Below, piece by piece: positions 22,314-31,031 of a stretch of 33,850 bases of DNA (position 1 is its first letter; the number at the start of each line of letters is the position of its first letter). Both the position numbers and the translations under genes were made by a program. Source of the stretch: Henriciella sp. (GTDB lineage Bacteria; Pseudomonadota; Alphaproteobacteria; Caulobacterales; Hyphomonadaceae); the NCBI GenBank assembly GCA_027019605.1, contig JALUWJ010000257.1, positions 1 through 33,850 of the forward strand, written 5' to 3'. The notes under the pieces are model-generated. The model was not told where the DNA came from and searched no databases. It saw only the letters and a program-made list of their open reading frames with translations.

Positions 22314-23771
22314 ATGAAACAAGCGGGTATAGTTTTGGGGTTCCTGGCATTGGGCGCGTGTTCTAGCGTTCCGAGTGTTCCAAGCTTGGGCGGACAACCA
22401 GAGGCAATTTTCCCGGTCGCGCCAGACGCGCCGGAGGTTTGGGCTGCTTCAGGTGTCGCAGGTGAAACACCAAAAACGGATTGGCTGAGCCAGTTCGACG
22501 ACGAGAAGCTGGTCGCTTTGGTGAATGAGGCGCTGTCTGCCAATCCGTCTATTCGTTCTCAGTTTTATGCCGTTGAGGCGACCCGTGCGCAGGCTCGGAG
22601 CACTTACGGGCGAAGCCTGCCCAGCCTCTCCGGCTCAGCGTCTGCCGGGGGCACCAGCAACTATATCGAATCCATCGACAGCCGCGTGGACGACACGACC
22701 TTTGGCGTCGGATTGGATCTGAGTTGGGATATCGATCTTTGGGGGCGCCTGCGCGCTGGTATCAATGCCGCCGAGGCTGACTTGGTCGCCAGCGAAGCCG
22801 ATCTCGCTTCCGCGCGTCTCGCCCTCGCGGCGCAAACAGCATCGGCTTGGTTCGATTTGAACGCGGCGCTCGCCCAAGAGCGGGTCGCAGTTGAAACATT
22901 TGAGGCTCGCAGCCGGGCCCTGGAACTGACCGAGCGGCGTCTGTCGCGTGGTCTCGCTTCTGCGCTTGATGTCCGCACAGCTCGTACAACGCAAGCGTCT
23001 GCGGAAGCGTCGATTGCGGCGCAGCGCCAGGCTAGCCAGAACGCCTCACGCCGACTGGAAATTCTGCTCGGCCGCTATCCAAGCGCTGAGCTTGATGCCT
23101 TGGCTGAGCTACCTGAACTGTCGGCCATCCCACCATCCGGTAACCCAACGCTCTTGCTCACTCGCCGCCCAGACATTGCAGCGGCTGAAGCGCGTGTCAT
23201 GGCCGCCGGATTGCGCGCCGAACAGGCCCGTCTGGCCATGCTGCCAAGCCTGCGGCTCACCGGTTCGGTCTCGACCACCGAGACCGATATTTCCGATGCG
23301 CTCGACCCAACCCGCGTCGCAGCGCGGCTGATCGCCGGTTTGGCGGCACCTATCTTTAATGGCGGTTCGCTCGATGCAGACCGTGATGCTGCGGTCGCAA
23401 GCGCACGGGCTGCGGTTGAAAACTATGCCGCAACGACGCTGACAGCTTGGCGTGAAGTTGAAGACGCATTGGCGGCTGATACGCTGCTGGCCCTGCAAGA
23501 AGATGCGCAGTTCCGAGCCTTGGAAGAAGCGCGCCTCGCCGAAGAACTGGCGACCCGACAATATACCAACGGTTTGGTCTCGATCTTTAACCTGATCGAC
23601 TCACAAACACGTCGTTTGAGCGCTGAGAGCAGTTTGATCTCGGCCCGCTCAGCACGTGCGTCAAACCGTGTTAGTTTCCACCTCGCTCTTGGCGGCGGTT
23701 TGCCGGTTCCAAACCCGGCCGCACCGATCGCTGCGAGCAATAATAGCCCCGAAGAGGCAGTCCTCCCATGA
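22314..23771 (+). CDS. NodT-family RND efflux outer-membrane lipoprotein
   Basis: A 485-residue TolC-like outer-membrane factor. The signal peptide ends with lipobox LGAC (Cys16), which marks the NodT/OprM lipoprotein class. Two outer-membrane-efflux repeats follow, with DWLSQFDDEKLVALVNEALSANPSIRSQ at the first helix and LSWDIDLWGRLRAGINAAEADLVASEADLASARLALAAQTASAWFDLNAALAQ in the coiled-coil barrel. LTRRPDIAAAEARVMAAGLRAEQARLAMLPSLRLTGS marks the second half. It forms the exit duct of the pump. AGAGG lies 6 bases before the ATG. The stop overlaps the adaptor start (ATGA). Confidence 0.94.
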   Translation: MKQAGIVLGFLALGACSSVPSVPSLGGQPEAIFPVAPDAPEVWAASGVAGETPKTDWLSQFDDEKLVALVNEALSANPSIRSQFYAVEATRAQARSTYGRSLPSLSGSASAGGTSNYIESIDSRVDDTTFGVGLDLSWDIDLWGRLRAGINAAEADLVASEADLASARLALAAQTASAWFDLNAALAQERVAVETFEARSRALELTERRLSRGLASALDVRTARTTQASAEASIAAQRQASQNASRRLEILLGRYPSAELDALAELPELSAIPPSGNPTLLLTRRPDIAAAEARVMAAGLRAEQARLAMLPSLRLTGSVSTTETDISDALDPTRVAARLIAGLAAPIFNGGSLDADRDAAVASARAAVENYAATTLTAWREVEDALAADTLLALQEDAQFRALEEARLAEELATRQYTNGLVSIFNLIDSQTRRLSAESSLISARSARASNRVSFHLALGGGLPVPNPAAPIAASNNSPEEAVLP

Positions 23772-25057
23772 GCCGTATCATTTCAATCTTTATTATAGTC
23801 GCAGCACTGGCAGGCATGGCCGTCGCCGCATTCATGACGGTTCAGATCTTGAAGCCAGAGCCGGAGCAAGCCGAAGAAAAGTTTGCTGGCTTGTCGGTAT
23901 TCTCGGAGGAAGTTCGCCAAGAAGACTTGGACTTCCATGTCACAGCGCAGGGCGAGGTTCGCCCGCAGCGTGAAATCGTTGTCGCGCCACAAATCGCGGG
24001 ACGTATTTCTTATGTGTCGCCTGATTTTATCGATGGCGGATTCATCCGTCGCGGTCAGGTCCTGGTACGCCTTGAAGTTGCTGACTATGAGCTTGCGGTG
24101 GTGAGAGCTCAGTCAGGCGTTGCAAGTGCTGAGCAGCGCTTGGCACGCGAACAAGCGGAAGCTGAAATTGCGCGCCAAGACCTGATCAATCTCGGGATTA
24201 CAGATTCAAGCCCTCTGGCTCGCCGTGAGCCGCAATTGGCCGAAGCCCGCGCCTCTCTGGAGTCTGCGAAAGCGCAACTTGCGGACGCTCAGCTGGCGCT
24301 TGGACGGACCGCGGTCGTGGCGCCGTTTGATGGACGAGTTCGCGAAGAGAATGTTGATGTCGGCCAATTTGCCTCACCAGGACAATCTCTCGGCCGCGTC
24401 TTCGCGACCGACATTGTGGAAGTGGCTTTGCCGATCACAGATGATGAGCTCGGACGCCTGGGACTGCCTTTGGCATTCGCAGAGACCGCCGCCGCTCCTG
24501 GACCGGAAGTGACATTCTCGGCTGCTGTCGCGGGTCAGATTCGCCAATGGACGGGCCGGATCACGCGGACATCTGCTGCGGTTAACCCGCAGACCCGCTT
24601 GATCAACGTCATCGCAGAGCTCAATGACCCTTATGGAGCAGGCTCGGATGATGGCGCGCCAATGGCGCCTGGATTGTTCGTCAATGCAGACATTGCCGGA
24701 ACCAAAATTGAAGACCTCCTCGTCGCGCCGCGTTCAGCCATCCGTGGCGGAGAGAACATCTTTATCGGTGACCCTGCAGAAGGTGCGCTGCGGATTTACG
24801 AAGTTGATCTGGTATTCAGCTCGCCAGATGGCGCCTGGTTCCGCAGTCCGGATGTCGCGCCTGGCGATCTTGCGATCACCAGTCCAATCCGTGGCTCGAA
24901 TGACGGTATGAGCATCACGATCCTGCAACGCATGGAAGATGGCTCAATCAAAAATCACAATGAAGCGGCGAATGCCGAGGAAGACGATGACGCTGGCACG
25001 GGTATGGCGGATGTTTCGACTGACCTTGTCGCAGGCGCTGGTGACGGAGGCCTATAA
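23768..25057 (+). CDS. RND efflux periplasmic adaptor (HlyD/MFP family)
   Basis: A 429-residue membrane-fusion protein that bridges pump and outer-membrane duct. An N-terminal membrane anchor (about residues 5-26) is followed by the first lipoyl half (QGEVRPQREIVVAPQIAGRISYVSPDFIDGGFIRRGQVLVRLE). An alpha-helical hairpin comes next (about residues 110-180), then the second lipoyl half (LGRTAVVAPFDGRVREENVDVGQFASPGQSLGRVF) and beta-barrel/membrane-proximal domains. The C-terminal tail of about 50 residues is very acidic with EEDDDAG and ends Gly-rich, which is unusual for adaptors. The stop overlaps the pump start by one base (TAATG). Confidence 0.93.
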   Translation: MSRIISIFIIVAALAGMAVAAFMTVQILKPEPEQAEEKFAGLSVFSEEVRQEDLDFHVTAQGEVRPQREIVVAPQIAGRISYVSPDFIDGGFIRRGQVLVRLEVADYELAVVRAQSGVASAEQRLAREQAEAEIARQDLINLGITDSSPLARREPQLAEARASLESAKAQLADAQLALGRTAVVAPFDGRVREENVDVGQFASPGQSLGRVFATDIVEVALPITDDELGRLGLPLAFAETAAAPGPEVTFSAAVAGQIRQWTGRITRTSAAVNPQTRLINVIAELNDPYGAGSDDGAPMAPGLFVNADIAGTKIEDLLVAPRSAIRGGENIFIGDPAEGALRIYEVDLVFSSPDGAWFRSPDVAPGDLAITSPIRGSNDGMSITILQRMEDGSIKNHNEAANAEEDDDAGTGMADVSTDLVAGAGDGGL

Positions 25058-28000
25058 TGTTCGGAATGGTATCCTGGTTCGCGCGGAACGCCGTTGCTGC
25101 TAACCTTCTAATGGTCGTCGCCTTTGTCGGCGGTGTTCTCGGCTTCAACCAAATGGAACGCGAAATGTTCCCGGTTGTCCCAGTCGCTGGAGCGTCGGTG
25201 ACCATGTCCTGGCAGGGCGCTTCGCCTCAGGACGTTGAAGAACAGATCATTACCCGGATCGAAGAGGCAGTCGCCGATATTGACGGGCTTGATCGGATCA
25301 CCTCGATCGCCCGCGAAAGCTTTGCCGTTGTGAACATTCGCGGCCGCGATGATATCGACATGCAGGTCTTCATTGATGAGATCAAACTGCGCGTCGATCA
25401 GATCAATAACCTGCCGCAAGCCGCATTCCAGCCGCAAGTGACCCGTTGGGAGCAACGCGATTGGTATTTCGGCATGGCGATTTTTGGCGAGGTCGATGCG
25501 CGGACGTTGAAGCGCGTTGCTGATGATGTTCGCGATGATATTGCCGAGATTAGCGGCGGTGAATTGGCGGTTCTTCAAGGCGTACTTGATGAAGAGGTCT
25601 CGATCGAGATCTCGGAAGATGCGCTGCGGCGCTACAATCTAAGCTTCTCGGAAGTGGCCCAGGCCATTCGCCAGTCGTCGCTGAATTCATCTGGCGGTCA
25701 AATCCGTTCGAATGTGGGTGACGTGTCGATGACCGCCCGCGCTCTAGCGGATACCCAAGAGCAGTTCGAAAAGATCATTGTGCGTCAATCCAATGATCAA
25801 GGCACGATCCGTGTTGGCGATATCGCTGAAGTGATCGATGGCTTTATCGACGCTGACCTCAATGCGACTCACAATGGCAGCCCGACCGCCTTTGTCATGG
25901 TGGTCCAGCCGGACCGAATGGACATCGTCAACTATGCCAACAGTTTCCGCGACTATATCGATCGCGCGAACAATCCGGCGACAGGCATTCTGCCGGACGG
26001 AATGCAAATCGAGATCCTTTGGGACAATTCGCAGCCCTTCCAGGCACGGATGCAGCTAATTTCAGAGTCAGCCCTGCTCGGTGCTGTCTTGGTGATGTTG
26101 GTCTTGATCTTGTTCCTGCGCCCGATCGTGGCGTTCTGGGTGACGATCGGTATTATTACAGCGTTCGCAGGTGGCATCATGCTGATGCCTCTCTTCGGCG
26201 TGTCCTGGAATGTCCTATCGACCTTTGCGGTTCTCTTGGTCATCGGGGTGATCGTTGATGATGCGATTGTGGTTGGGGAGAATATCCACCGCGAAGTCGA
26301 AAGCGGTCGGCGCGAAGGAATCGACGCCGCTGTCGTCGGAACTCAGCTTGTATTCAAACCGGTTGTTTTCGGGGTTATCACCACGATTATCGCATTTGCA
26401 CCTTGGGCAATGCTGACCGGACCGACCCGAGCCTTCACCCAGCAGATTACGTTCGTTGTGATCGCCTCGCTCATATTCTCGATCATCGAGTGTATGTTCA
26501 TCCTGCCGGCGCACCTCTCGCACATGAAGAAAGAGGATAAGAGCAAGCAAAACGGACTGGCTCGGTTCCAGCAGCGCATCGCTGACAGTCTGCTTTGGTT
26601 CGCGCAGCACATTTATAAGCCGGTGCTCGAGTTCGCATTGCGTATGCGCTACGCGACAATCGTCTTCTTCTTTATCGTGTTCGCCTTTGCGATCATGCTG
26701 GTGGCGAACCGCGTCGTGCCGTTCAAGTTCATGCCGGAAATCGAGAGCGATCTGGTTCAGGTCACAATCGAAATGCCGGAAGGCACGCCATTCTCTCGAA
26801 CCTTGCAAGTGCGTGATCAGCTACAAGCTGGGATCAATGCTGCCGAGGTCGAGCTCAATTCAAAATGGAATAGCGAGATCATTCGATCTGAGGGCGGGTA
26901 TGAGGGCGGTGTTCTCAATGGTGCGTCAGTCGTTGCATCTAATAGCCGAATTCAGTCTTGGATTGGACTAGTGCCCCCGGAAAACCGTCCGGAATTACTG
27001 TCGACACGCGAGATCTCAGAAAAGATCCGTGAGCTCGTTGGCCCGGTCCAAGACGCTGAGGAAGTCAGTTTTGACTTCACAGACAATGAGAATGATACCG
27101 GCGTTCGGTTTGCATTGAACCATCCGGATCTAGATCGCTTGCGTGAAGCGTCCGCGGTCGTCCAAGAACAGCTCGCTACTTATGCAGCAGCATATGATAT
27201 CGGCGACAACCTCACTGCTGCGGCGGACGAGCTTCGCATTGAGCTGAAGCCTGGGGCGGAAGCCTTGGGGGTCTCTCTGGCTGATGTTTCGCGCCAAATT
27301 CGCCAAGCCTATTTCGGTGAAGAAGTGCAGCGTTTGCCGCGCGATGGTGAAGATGTCCGCGTGATGGTGCGCTTGCCGAAATCGGCTCGGACCGACCTCG
27401 ATAGTATCGACAATTTGCGCATTCGAACCGCGGATGGGCGTGAGTTGCCGCTGACCCAGGTTGCAGAGTTTACCTATGCGCCAGGCATCAACCGGATCTT
27501 GCGCCGCAACCGGACACGGTCGGTATCAGTCTTCGCTGACGTTCTCGGTGACGGCGGGCGCGGTCAAGTCATGGCCGATATGAACGTCAATTTCTGGCCG
27601 GACTTTGAAAAGCAGTTCCCGGATATCGAACGGGGTGCAGCTGGCGGATTTGAACAGGAGCAACGCTTCTTCAACGAGCTGCAAATGCTGGCGGCAGGGG
27701 CGATCATCTGTATGTATATCGTCCTGGCGATTGCCTTCCGTTCTTACGCGCAGCCATTGCTGTTGATGACGGCGATCCCGTTCGCGGTCACAGGAGCGAT
27801 CCTTGGGCATGCGATTACAGGGACGTCGATGGCGATGTTCTCGATCTTCGGGATCGCGGCCGCAGCCGGTGTTGTGATCAATGACAACTTGGTCTTGGTC
27901 GATTTCGTCAACCGAAAACGGGCCGAGGGCACTGGGGCGGTGCAAGCCCTGGTCGATGCCGGTGTATCGCGCTTCCGTCCGATCTTGCTGACCTCAGTGA

Positions 28001-28293
28001 CAACATTTGTGGGTATTCTGCCTCTGATCGCAGAACGCTCCATGCAGGCACAATTCCTCAAGCCGATGGTGATTTCACTGGGCTACGCGGTGGCGTTCGC
28101 AATCTTTGTGTCACTCTTCTTGGTGCCAACGCTTTACGCGGTTGGGGTCGAGATTGGCCGTGTCTTCCGCTGGAGTTGGGGTGGTCGCCCTTATCGTAAG
28201 ATTGGCGAATCCTATTCAGGCGAAGTTACGATCGATAGCGAAGAGTTGATCGGAACCAGTGCGGAAACGCCGCGACCGATGCCAGCGGAATAA
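25057..28293 (+). CDS. RND-family efflux transporter permease (AcrB-like)
   Basis: A 1078-residue proton-driven inner-membrane pump of the RND superfamily. The N-terminal membrane segment is followed by porter-domain motifs (VVPVAGASVTMSWQGASPQDVEEQIITRIEEAV). The first membrane bundle has VLVMLVLILFLRPIVAFWVTIGIITAFAG and GVIVDDAIVVGENIHRE, where Asp401-Asp402 correspond to the proton-relay pair of AcrB. A second porter half and second bundle follow (FSIFGIAAAAGVVINDNLVLVDFVNRKRAEG, RFRPILLTSVTTFVGILPLIAERS). It belongs to the multidrug/heavy-molecule (HAE-type) branch rather than metal pumps. Substrate is unknown, and no regulator gene is next to the operon. Confidence 0.95.
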   Translation: MFGMVSWFARNAVAANLLMVVAFVGGVLGFNQMEREMFPVVPVAGASVTMSWQGASPQDVEEQIITRIEEAVADIDGLDRITSIARESFAVVNIRGRDDIDMQVFIDEIKLRVDQINNLPQAAFQPQVTRWEQRDWYFGMAIFGEVDARTLKRVADDVRDDIAEISGGELAVLQGVLDEEVSIEISEDALRRYNLSFSEVAQAIRQSSLNSSGGQIRSNVGDVSMTARALADTQEQFEKIIVRQSNDQGTIRVGDIAEVIDGFIDADLNATHNGSPTAFVMVVQPDRMDIVNYANSFRDYIDRANNPATGILPDGMQIEILWDNSQPFQARMQLISESALLGAVLVMLVLILFLRPIVAFWVTIGIITAFAGGIMLMPLFGVSWNVLSTFAVLLVIGVIVDDAIVVGENIHREVESGRREGIDAAVVGTQLVFKPVVFGVITTIIAFAPWAMLTGPTRAFTQQITFVVIASLIFSIIECMFILPAHLSHMKKEDKSKQNGLARFQQRIADSLLWFAQHIYKPVLEFALRMRYATIVFFFIVFAFAIMLVANRVVPFKFMPEIESDLVQVTIEMPEGTPFSRTLQVRDQLQAGINAAEVELNSKWNSEIIRSEGGYEGGVLNGASVVASNSRIQSWIGLVPPENRPELLSTREISEKIRELVGPVQDAEEVSFDFTDNENDTGVRFALNHPDLDRLREASAVVQEQLATYAAAYDIGDNLTAAADELRIELKPGAEALGVSLADVSRQIRQAYFGEEVQRLPRDGEDVRVMVRLPKSARTDLDSIDNLRIRTADGRELPLTQVAEFTYAPGINRILRRNRTRSVSVFADVLGDGGRGQVMADMNVNFWPDFEKQFPDIERGAAGGFEQEQRFFNELQMLAAGAIICMYIVLAIAFRSYAQPLLLMTAIPFAVTGAILGHAITGTSMAMFSIFGIAAAAGVVINDNLVLVDFVNRKRAEGTGAVQALVDAGVSRFRPILLTSVTTFVGILPLIAERSMQAQFLKPMVISLGYAVAFAIFVSLFLVPTLYAVGVEIGRVFRWSWGGRPYRKIGESYSGEVTIDSEELIGTSAETPRPMPAE

Positions 28294-28338
28294 GGCATAC
28301 ACCTTCAACCTAACATTCAAACGTTCCGGGAGAGACGA

Positions 28339-30522
28339 ATGAAAAACCTATGGCTTGCGAGCGCTGCGGCGCTGGCTTTGGGCGCATGCGGTGCGCAGAA
28401 CACTTCAGAGACGGCAACCCCCTCTGGCGACTATGAGGCCGCAACGGCCGAGCGCGTTGTAGAAACCAGTTCGCGTGACGATTGGGGCGCCTTTGGTCTT
28501 GACCTCTATTCGGTGAACGCGGAGGTTCATCCGGGCGATGATTTCTTCAATCATGTGAATGGAACATGGTATGATGAGTTCGAGATCCCAAGCGATCAAA
28601 CCCGTTATGGATCGTTTACGCTGCTGCGGGAAAAATCTGAGCAGCGGGTGAAATTCATCATTGATGACCTGGCCGCTGCGAAGCCAGACCCGGCGACCCT
28701 CGAAGGAAAAGTCGCGGCTTTTTATAACGCATTTGTTGATACGGATGCGATCGAAGCTGCTGGCATGGCGCCGGTCCAGCCCTATCTCGACCAAATCGAT
28801 CAGATTGAAACCCAGGAAGATCTCGCGCGGGCATTCGCAACAGTCGGGTTCGCAAGTCCTATCGGCGGCGGTGTCAGCATTGATGCGAAGAAGACCGATG
28901 AGAATATCTTCTATATCTTTCAGTCCGGGCTCGGCCTCGGGGATCGGTCTTACTATCTCGGCGATGATGAAAAGAACCAAGAGATTCGCGACGGCTATCT
29001 CACATTTTTGACCACTGTGCTCGAAGCAGCTGGATCTGAAGATGCCGCCGACGGCGCCGCGCGCATCCTTGCTTTGGAAACCCGGATCGCTGAGGCGCAT
29101 TGGGATCGCACAATGAACCGGAATCGCGATCTGACCTATAATAAACTCAGCAAGGATGAGTTGCTTGAACTTGGCGGAGCCTTCCCGTTTGAGGCGATGT
29201 TGGATGCAACCGGCGTCGCAGATCAGGCTTTCTTCGTGGTCAGCCAGGTTATGCCAAGCGAAGAAGAGATTGAGACGCTCGGCTTGACCGACGATCAGCT
29301 GGAAAAAATCTCCGGCGGCGGGATCGCGGCAATCGCAGAAGTGATGGCATCAGCGGATCTGGAAGACTGGAAAACCTATCTCAAAGCGCGGTTCATCGCA
29401 TCGAATGCGAGCGTTCTACCGAGCAAAATTGATGAAGCCAGCTTTGCCTTCTTCAATCAACAGCTGCGCGGTCAGGAAGAGCAACGCCCACGCTGGAAGC
29501 GCGGCGTATCTGCGGTTGAAGGTGCGCTCGGAGAAGCTGTCGGCAAAGTCTATGCGGACCGATATTTCCCGGCCGAAAACAAGGCCGCGATGGATGAGCT
29601 CGTCGCTAATCTTCGCCTCGCAATGTCTGACAATCTGAATGAAATCGATTGGATGGGTGAGGACACAAAGGTCCAAGCGCGCGACAAGCTTTCAAAGTTC
29701 ACGCCCAAAATTGGGTTTACTGAGAAGTTCGAGACCTATGATGGGTTGAGCGTTTCCAGCAATGCGTTTGAAAATGCCCAAGTCGCAGACCGCTGGGCGT
29801 TTGAGGACAATCTCGCAAAGCTCGGCCAGCCGATCGACAAGACCGAGTGGTTCATGTTGCCGCAAACGGTCAACGCATATTACTCGCCAACGCGAAACGA
29901 GATTGTGTTTCCAGCGGCGATCTTGCAGCCCCCCTTCTTCAACATCGATGCCGATCCAGCGATCAATTATGGCGCGATTGGCGGCGTGATCGGACACGAG
30001 ATTGGTCACGGCTTCGATGATCAAGGCTCCAAGTCTGATGGCGATGGCGTTCTACGCGATTGGTGGACGGCAGAAGACAAGGAAGCTTTTGTTGCGCGCA
30101 CCGATGCTTTGGTTGGTCAGTACAATGGCTTCTGCCCGCTTGATGATGGCGAAACCTGCGTCAATGGACGCCTCGGACTCGGCGAGAATACAGGCGACCT
30201 TGGCGGTCTCTCAATGGCCTACAAAGCCTATAAAATGAGCCTTGATACCAATGGCGATGGCGAGATTAGCGCCGATGAAGAAGCTCCCGTGCTGGATGGC
30301 CTGACCGGTGATCAACGCTTCTTCATGGCGTGGGCGCAAGTCTGGCGGAACAAGTATCGCGAAGAGGCTCTGCGTCAGCAGCTGGTTCGCGGCCCGCACA
30401 GCCCGCCTTACTACCGCGTCAACGGTATCGTGCGCAATTTCGACGAATGGTACGAAGCGTTCGATGTCGGTCCTGAGCACGAGCTTTATCTGCCGCCAGA
30501 GGATCGGATCCGTATCTGGTAG
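28339..30522 (+). CDS. M13 family zinc metallopeptidase lipoprotein (neprilysin/PepO-like) with EF-hand-like loop
   Basis: A 727-residue zinc endopeptidase of the neprilysin family, predicted as a lipoprotein (lipobox LGAC, Cys17). The N-terminal domain starts with HPGDDFFNHVNGTWYDEFEIP. The catalytic domain has NAYYSPTRNEIVFPAAILQPPFF, the zinc motif HEIGH (residues 553-557) in GGVIGHEIGHGFDDQG, and ENTGDLGG with Glu616 as third ligand and Asp620. It ends in PPEDRIRIW, the normal family terminus. DTNGDGEISADE at residues 636-647 is inserted between the ENTGDLGG helix and the FFMAWAQVWR segment and reads as a canonical EF-hand loop. GGGAGAGA precedes the ATG. It starts 45 bases after the pump gene and may be cotranscribed. 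Confidence 0.93.
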   Translation: MKNLWLASAAALALGACGAQNTSETATPSGDYEAATAERVVETSSRDDWGAFGLDLYSVNAEVHPGDDFFNHVNGTWYDEFEIPSDQTRYGSFTLLREKSEQRVKFIIDDLAAAKPDPATLEGKVAAFYNAFVDTDAIEAAGMAPVQPYLDQIDQIETQEDLARAFATVGFASPIGGGVSIDAKKTDENIFYIFQSGLGLGDRSYYLGDDEKNQEIRDGYLTFLTTVLEAAGSEDAADGAARILALETRIAEAHWDRTMNRNRDLTYNKLSKDELLELGGAFPFEAMLDATGVADQAFFVVSQVMPSEEEIETLGLTDDQLEKISGGGIAAIAEVMASADLEDWKTYLKARFIASNASVLPSKIDEASFAFFNQQLRGQEEQRPRWKRGVSAVEGALGEAVGKVYADRYFPAENKAAMDELVANLRLAMSDNLNEIDWMGEDTKVQARDKLSKFTPKIGFTEKFETYDGLSVSSNAFENAQVADRWAFEDNLAKLGQPIDKTEWFMLPQTVNAYYSPTRNEIVFPAAILQPPFFNIDADPAINYGAIGGVIGHEIGHGFDDQGSKSDGDGVLRDWWTAEDKEAFVARTDALVGQYNGFCPLDDGETCVNGRLGLGENTGDLGGLSMAYKAYKMSLDTNGDGEISADEEAPVLDGLTGDQRFFMAWAQVWRNKYREEALRQQLVRGPHSPPYYRVNGIVRNFDEWYEAFDVGPEHELYLPPEDRIRIW
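30244..30279 (+). other. EF-hand-like calcium-binding loop within the M13 peptidase
   Basis: Codons 636-647 encode DTNGDGEISADE, which has Asp at loop position 1, Asn at 3, Asp at 5, Gly at 6, Ile at 8 and Glu at 12, as in a canonical EF-hand or dockerin loop. Calcium binding is inferred from the pattern only. Confidence 0.65.
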
Positions 30523-30662: not shown

Positions 30663-31031
30663 GTGCCGAAACCAAAAACCGTAAGTGCCTATTTTGATGG
30701 GTTGGAATCTCATCAATCCGCCATCGCGCTCGGCTTGGAAAATGTCATAAAAACGCAATGGCCACACCTCACAGTGAAGCTTGCTTGGGGATTTCCATGC
30801 TGGAGTGGAAATGAACGAGTGTTCTCGATCATCGCGCACGCCGATCGGTGTAATTTGCAGCTCTGGCAGGGCGCACGATTGGCGAACGACTATTTCGAGC
30901 GGATCGAAGGCACCGGGAAATCGCTGCGGCATGTCAAAGTGTATTCGGCGGATGAAATCAATGACGAGCTAATTGATATTATGGACCGCGCAGTCACCTT
31001 GGATACGACAGCGCCGCAGCGGGTCAGATAA
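30663..31031 (+). CDS. DUF1801 domain-containing protein
   Basis: A 122-residue small protein of the DUF1801 (YdhG-like) family, whose biochemical role is unknown. Visible features are KTVSAYFDGLESHQSAIALGLENVI at the N terminus, TVKLAWGFPCWSGNERVFSIIAHADRCNLQLWQGARLANDY and the hallmark GTGKSLRHVKVYSADEINDELIDIMDRAV. No signal peptide or membrane segment is present. The start is GTG, preceded by GGGGAGCGGGAA; no in-frame ATG gives a full domain. It lies alone between the terminator at 30543 and the thiolase gene, which has its own leader of 112 bases in which I see no clear promoter. Confidence 0.82.
   Translation: MPKPKTVSAYFDGLESHQSAIALGLENVIKTQWPHLTVKLAWGFPCWSGNERVFSIIAHADRCNLQLWQGARLANDYFERIEGTGKSLRHVKVYSADEINDELIDIMDRAVTLDTTAPQRVR

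Follow-up and report, generated by a model that had tools for sequence, protein, structure and literature searches.

Analysis of an M13 metallopeptidase encoded in a 33,850-nucleotide stretch of Henriciella DNA (the window) revealed an insert of nine codons that forms a loop with the complete 12-residue EF-hand pattern at the end of the helix bearing a predicted zinc ligand, and that is present in relatives of this enzyme either whole or not at all. We consider it likely that the insert is a single EF-hand-type loop which binds one Ca2+ and stabilizes the catalytic domain, and that it acts as a structural clip and not as a switch. The features on which the analysis rests are the following.

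25057..28293, + strand: RND efflux transporter gene directly upstream, a syntenic marker for orthology (PF00873, 524.6 bits)
28339..30522, + strand: M13 metallopeptidase gene, 727 amino acids, probable lipoprotein (Pfam domains, PDB relatives, model)
28339..28389, + strand: signal peptide with lipobox LGAC, putative lipidation at Cys17, Gly as the +2 residue (sequence)
29995..30009, + strand: HEIGH zinc-binding motif, residues 553-557 (sequence; H553, E554 and H557 invariant in a 47-sequence alignment)
30178..30243, + strand: helix 614-635, with the zinc ligand E616 and with D620 (GENTGDLGG), ending at the loop (AlphaFold2 model)
30244..30279, + strand: predicted EF-hand-type calcium loop DTNGDGEISADE, residues 636-647 (conserved in 54 of 54 inserts; found in 55 of 321 readable M13 sequences)
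30247..30273, + strand: insert of nine codons (27 nt) that short-loop relatives lack, aligned as residues 637-645 (from a MAFFT alignment of 114 rows and the DNA of both forms)
30307..30342, + strand: next helix, residues 657-668, at the start of the TGDQRFFMAWAQ region (spacing equal with and without the insert in two models)

The assignment of the protein to the M13 family is straightforward. Both characteristic domains score above the curated Pfam cut-offs (PF05649, 351.8 bits; PF01431, 231.7 bits), the PDB relatives are Zmp1, PepO and neprilysin, and the model of the window protein has the M13 fold, matching Porphyromonas gingivalis PepO (9kn2) with a Z score of 47.3 and an rmsd of 1.5 over 645 residues. 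The HExxH and the downstream ExxxD motifs of the family are both present, and E616, N617 and D620 are invariant in the 47-sequence alignment; by its role in neprilysin, we take E616 to be a zinc ligand. The closest named relative is the protein of Henriciella sp. DT_47 (92% identical), and a single M13 match was found in the source genome, a fragmented assembly of 327 contigs that is 84.46% complete. The sequence-only reading had described the enzyme as extracellular, which is imprecise given that the window protein is probably a lipoprotein (LGAC|G, Cys17). A lipobox is present in 22 of the 25 loop-bearing rows that could be judged (of 54 in total), the other three being stretches that lack their start, and in 18 of 36 judged short rows (of 60, outgroup included), at least one of the remaining 18 being likewise a stretch missing its start. 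Glycine at the +2 position of a lipoprotein is compatible with sorting to the outer membrane.

In the window, genes for an outer-membrane efflux protein, a membrane-fusion protein and the RND pump lie directly upstream of the M13 gene (22314-30522, peptidase gene included), with a gap of 45 bases between the pump gene and the peptidase gene. Pump and peptidase genes are likewise neighbors at many loci of Hyphomonadaceae and at Robiginitomaculum loci whose proteins are 45-47% identical. A small DUF1801 protein is encoded after the M13 gene (30663-31031) and is also found nearby in many Henriciella and Hyphomonas loci.

The canonical EF-hand loop consists of 12 residues, with calcium ligands at positions 1, 3, 5, 7 (through the backbone), 9 and 12, a glycine at position 6 and a hydrophobic residue at position 8. 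As the sequence-only reading had proposed, such a loop, DTNGDGEISADE, occupies residues 636-647 of the 28339-30522 frame, and it does lie between the ENTGDLGG zinc-ligand helix (616-623) and the FFMAWAQVWR segment (661-670). The loop contains the conserved linear motif Dx[DN]xDG in the form DTNGDG. The bare motif string is near chance for a sequence such as the window and by itself is weak evidence: at the DNA level, the D-x-[ND]-G-D pattern has two matches in the window against 0.53 expected, two or more occurred in 10 of 100 shuffles, and the second match (27822-27836) lies within the pump gene in a frame that differs from the frame of that gene. The loop is more than a chance string because the ligand positions are kept in all 54 aligned inserts, with purifying selection exactly at these positions; this position-specific conservation rules out chance as the explanation.

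The distribution of the loop was surveyed in 332 unique M13 open frames, in 321 of which the region is readable (10 frames stop short of it and one consists of unknown bases there). The loop is present in 55 of the 321, always with the full pattern and always with 23 residues between the fixed flanks, and the other 266 have a short form of 8 to 18 residues, most often 14; one form of 8 residues belongs to a gene interrupted by a frameshift. None of the 266 contains a long but degenerate loop, so that the state of affairs which the sequence-only reading had named as speaking against its proposal, a family with mostly degenerate acidic loops, is not what these sequences show. By a hand count, 49 of the 55 loops come from the family of the window genome (region read in 101 genomes; in one further genome, G290, only the N-terminal part of the M13 gene is present) and six from the family of a SAR92 genome (region read in 45 of 49 matching genomes). 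The relatives were drawn from the window genome's own family (M13 match in 102 of 105 genomes), from ranks between genus and order (60 of 61 genomes), from contigs of named genomes (60 loci) and from the SAR92 family (49 of 112 genomes). In three phylum-wide draws PF01431 was found in 21 of 200 genomes of Pseudomonadota (34 matches), in 42 of 118 genomes from the phylum of the Bacteroidetes sequence L077 (55 matches) and in 5 of 119 genomes from the phylum of the Pirellula sequence L080 (five matches), and among all these matches, every one of which was fetched, the loop is present only in the window's own. A marine habitat, which the sequence-only reading had seen as fitting for such a peptidase, does not account for the presence of the loop: Hirschia and Ponticaulis, both marine, have the gene in the form without the loop.

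For the analysis of substitutions, 100 close rows (at least 880 bits and at least 600 amino acids) were aligned together with 14 outgroup rows. In this alignment 54 of the 100 close rows contain the loop as an insert, always nine residues long, and a short turn such as SLNGEEAPVIDG takes its place in the other 46 and in all 14 outgroup rows. All 54 inserts keep D1, D/N3, D/N5, G6, I/V/L8 and E12; at position 3 there is either D or N, at position 5 D in 52 rows and N in two, at position 8 V, I or L, and at position 9 S in 52 of the 54. Parsimony counting of codon changes on the tree, for the 54 loop rows, gives 16, 10 and 11 synonymous changes at positions 1, 6 and 12, respectively (37 in total), against no amino acid changes. 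Positions 2, 7, 10 and 11, the side chains of which are not calcium ligands in EF-hands, have undergone about 31, 33, 20 and 26 amino acid changes, and the difference between the two groups of positions is highly significant when changes are treated as independent (Fisher p = 4e-13). Judged from the sequences, this is the signature to be expected of a working EF-hand-type loop.

Structure modeling, a check that had been suggested along with the original proposal, gave an AlphaFold2 model of the window protein (47 sequences; mean pLDDT 90.7) in which the two blocks containing the loop have pLDDT values of 92 and 91. In this model, helix 614-635 (block pLDDT 92-96), with E616 and D620 at its start, runs without interruption into the loop, which is followed by one helical turn (645-647), bridges at 652 and 655 and a helix at 657-668. 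The corresponding model of the Hirschia protein L048, which has the short form and served as a control (31 sequences; pLDDT 87.0), contains a helix at 628-648, bridges at 657 and 660 and a helix at 662-673. The spacing of the flanking elements is the same in both (652/655/657 with the loop and 657/660/662 without it), so that the scaffold is unchanged apart from the loop and the single helical turn contributed by the insert.

The description of the loop as a textbook EF-hand can be retained only in part. The 12-residue loop with its ligand positions, Gly6 and hydrophobic residue at position 8 is present in 54 of 54 inserts. The Pfam scores, however, are below the cut-offs (EF-hand_5, 15.8 bits against 25.9; EF-hand_1, 11.2 against 25.4); of the helix-loop-helix unit, the model contains the E helix (614-635) and, in place of the F helix, a single turn (645-647); and the loop is the only one in the window protein, so that paired hands are absent. 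Among 251 M13 open reading frames, further matches to the loop motif outside the loop region amount to one string, in L132. Thus, as modeled, the loop is not a full EF-hand, having a short second helix, no partner and a sub-threshold Pfam score; it is nevertheless expected to work like one, and the reduction of the F helix to one turn implies that its calcium affinity could be low.

The solved M13 enzymes that are the best PDB relatives of the window protein by both sequence and structure, namely Zmp1 (3zuk, 7k1v), PepO of P. gingivalis (9kn2, 9fma) and of T. forsythia (9eyg), neprilysin (1dmt) and ECE-1 (3dwb), share with it the fold and the catalytic motifs. The stretch that corresponds to residues 614-669, in contrast, comprises 56 residues in the window protein, 47 in Zmp1 and the two PepO proteins (nine fewer) and 50 in neprilysin and ECE-1 (six fewer), so that the loop is absent from Zmp1 and the two PepO proteins, in support of this part of the sequence-only reading; PepO of L. 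rhamnosus (4iuw) was unmatched in this stretch and stands outside the comparison. Calcium loops with the same linear motif are known from many other proteins. According to the survey by Rigden et al. (2011; PMC3123361), Dx[DN]xDG loops bind calcium in a nearly identical manner in at least 12 families, grafting of such a loop into rat CD2 created a new calcium site, and an archaeal subtilisin carries the motif inside a 25-residue insert; these authors regard the loops as convergent and suggest that they may be fixed more easily outside the cell. The M13 loop has the linear motif in common with the loops outside EF-hands described there but differs from them in having the full EF-hand Glu12 and in replacing a turn at the end of a helix. 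The main text of that survey contains none of the words "M13", "neprilysin" and "peptidase", "calcium" and "EF-hand" are absent from a study of M13 family evolution (PMC2259306), and no M13 peptidase with a loop of the calcium or EF-hand type was found among the titles and abstract openings of the papers listed by searches of the open PMC library, a minority of all matches in a collection that mostly excludes subscription journals. The M13 peptidase with a single predicted EF-hand-type calcium loop is a real variant of two known things, undescribed as far as these searches reach.

If the loop functions as we propose, one Ca2+ would be held by the side chains of D636, N638, D640 and E647, the last contributing two oxygens, together with the backbone oxygen at 642 and probably a water molecule at or near S644. 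Helix 614-635, which bears E616 at its N-terminal end, would lead at its other end into the loop where short-form relatives have a short N/D-G turn, and the bound ion would cap this helix and clip it to the following segment; in the calcium-rich cell envelope, the catalytic domain would thereby be stabilized or shielded from proteolytic attack. Because calcium outside the cell is millimolar, the site would normally be full, which argues for a clip rather than for a switch. The calcium-switched peptidase that had been put forward as an option, in which Ca2+ at the end of the zinc-ligand helix would turn the enzyme on or off, for example between the envelope and open water, is possible but in our estimate unlikely, and no positive evidence for it emerged. 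The continuity of the loop with the helix bearing E616 and D620 in the model would favor a switch, but some 30 Angstrom of helix (20 residues at 1.5 each) should separate E616 from D636, many relatives lack the loop, and calcium in sea water is high and steady.

Published work on two other peptidases bears on the same question from both sides. The prolyl aminodipeptidase PepX resembles the M13 loop protein in having a Dx[DN]xDG loop within the catalytic domain, conserved in a bacterial clade, but is an alpha/beta hydrolase, and its motif is given as ending in Asp (xDxDxDGxxD); in PepX, loop mutants melt about 2-3 degrees lower (about 2 degrees for a single mutation) and activity is unaltered by EDTA or added Ca2+, which speaks against a switch, although a double mutant of the loop is inactive despite being natively folded, which speaks for one (PMC10536834). 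PepS of Shewanella is a characterized marine M13 peptidase that may or may not carry the insert; it is nearly indifferent to calcium (105% activity at 2 mM and 95% at 4 mM), and the greater loss of activity with 2 mM EGTA (14.1% left) than with 2 mM EDTA (21.9% left), a point in favor of a switch, could in both cases be explained by loss of zinc (PMC4701951).

That the insert binds no metal, and that it persists as an acidic surface loop because it aids solubility in salt or contacts other proteins, appears more doubtful still. The insert is indeed acidic, but Gly6, Glu12 and the hydrophobic residue at position 8 are kept while the non-ligand positions 10 and 11 vary, the pLDDT above 90 argues against a floppy loop, and degenerate acidic variants number zero among the 321 sequences. 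Least probable of all is that the site holds another divalent ion in vivo, Mg2+ or Mn2+: EF-hand-type loops can take other ions, but the Glu at position 12, present in 54 of 54 inserts, favors Ca2+ over Mg2+ when invariant.

Both forms of the enzyme occur among close relatives. Within the genus of the window organism (genus code g1), five proteins (L016, L017, L027, L029 and L030) lack the loop, and both forms are likewise found within the Hyphomonas-type group g5; the existence of close relatives of the same genus without the loop indicates that it is dispensable. The RND transporter gene adjoins the peptidase gene in the loop carriers and also in the short-form loci L016, L029, L030, L048, L166, L167, L168 and L171 and those of Ponticaulis, so that, for several of the short forms, both gene and position correspond to those of the loop forms. 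No pump gene was found in the available flanks of two short rows from this genus, L017 and L027, or of the short rows from Sphingomonadaceae and Blastomonas, which makes orthology less certain for these. Local recombination was considered as a route by which the loop may have been lost: in the highly conserved segment near the loop, the short forms L017, L029 and L030 look slightly more similar to other short rows than to their loop-bearing relatives, and L016 is mixed, in a comparison of small, hand-picked sets.

The tree comprises the 114 aligned rows, such that rows below 880 bits or 600 amino acids other than the 14 outgroup rows, among them two partial sequences, L060 with the loop and L096 with the short form, fall outside it, and it has 22 open forks, backbone included. 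The least number of changes of loop state is eight, at least six of which are forced by the starred branches. A single clade of all 54 loop rows was rejected (p-AU 5.45e-07) in a test set up after inspection of the tree and run on a quick LG+G4 tree. The count of state changes is compatible with gain, loss and gene transfer alike, and there may have been one gain followed by many losses or several gains. That the same nine-codon loop arose, or was brought in, on more than one occasion at one point of one gene, the site being gained or lost whole and without intermediates among close relatives, is a tentative reading that we hold to be somewhat improbable.

Transfer is suggested by the six loop-bearing proteins from Porticoccaceae/SAR92 (L036, L038, L040, L046, L059 and, from the same family, L217). 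These proteins are 67-71% identical to the window protein and, together with the Henriciella-type L011, nest inside the Henriciella loop clade; the other full-length M13 matches of the SAR92 family are mostly 43-48% identical, and all those in which the region could be read have the short form. The transporter neighbor is present at none of the four Porticoccaceae/SAR92 loci with enough upstream sequence (L038, L040, L046 and L059; L036 and L217 start at contig ends). Most simply, these sequences would go back to a Henriciella-like donor from which the gene was transferred together with its loop; mis-binned contigs are a possible alternative source. At L046 (G327:C236, Porticoccaceae UBA9550), M13 is matched in two frames that meet near residue 670 (37-677 and 670-727); the break adjoins a run of unknown bases and is probably an assembly gap.

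An origin of the loop from an EF-hand gene of the same genome was also considered. The genome yields 17 EF-hand_5 matches at E values up to 10, none above the cut-off and one of them the M13 loop itself; among the seven other loci of the eight returned, the loop most similar to that of the M13 gene agrees with it at 27 of 36 bases, a level that the shared motif alone could give. An open frame of 159 amino acids at G000:C282:291-605 (L281, L282 and L284) has four EF-hand-type matches, all below the Pfam cut-off, and further sub-threshold matches on contigs C177, C201 and C299 point to other likely calcium proteins in this genome.

The loop is of moderate interest, chiefly for its whole-or-none presence in one gene. 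A single gene with matched relatives that do and do not carry a predicted calcium loop of 27 nucleotides makes it possible to measure, in one enzyme, the cost, the benefit and the order of events when a metal site emerges or disappears. For some M13 peptidases, calcium in buffers may matter, and so may EGTA controls.
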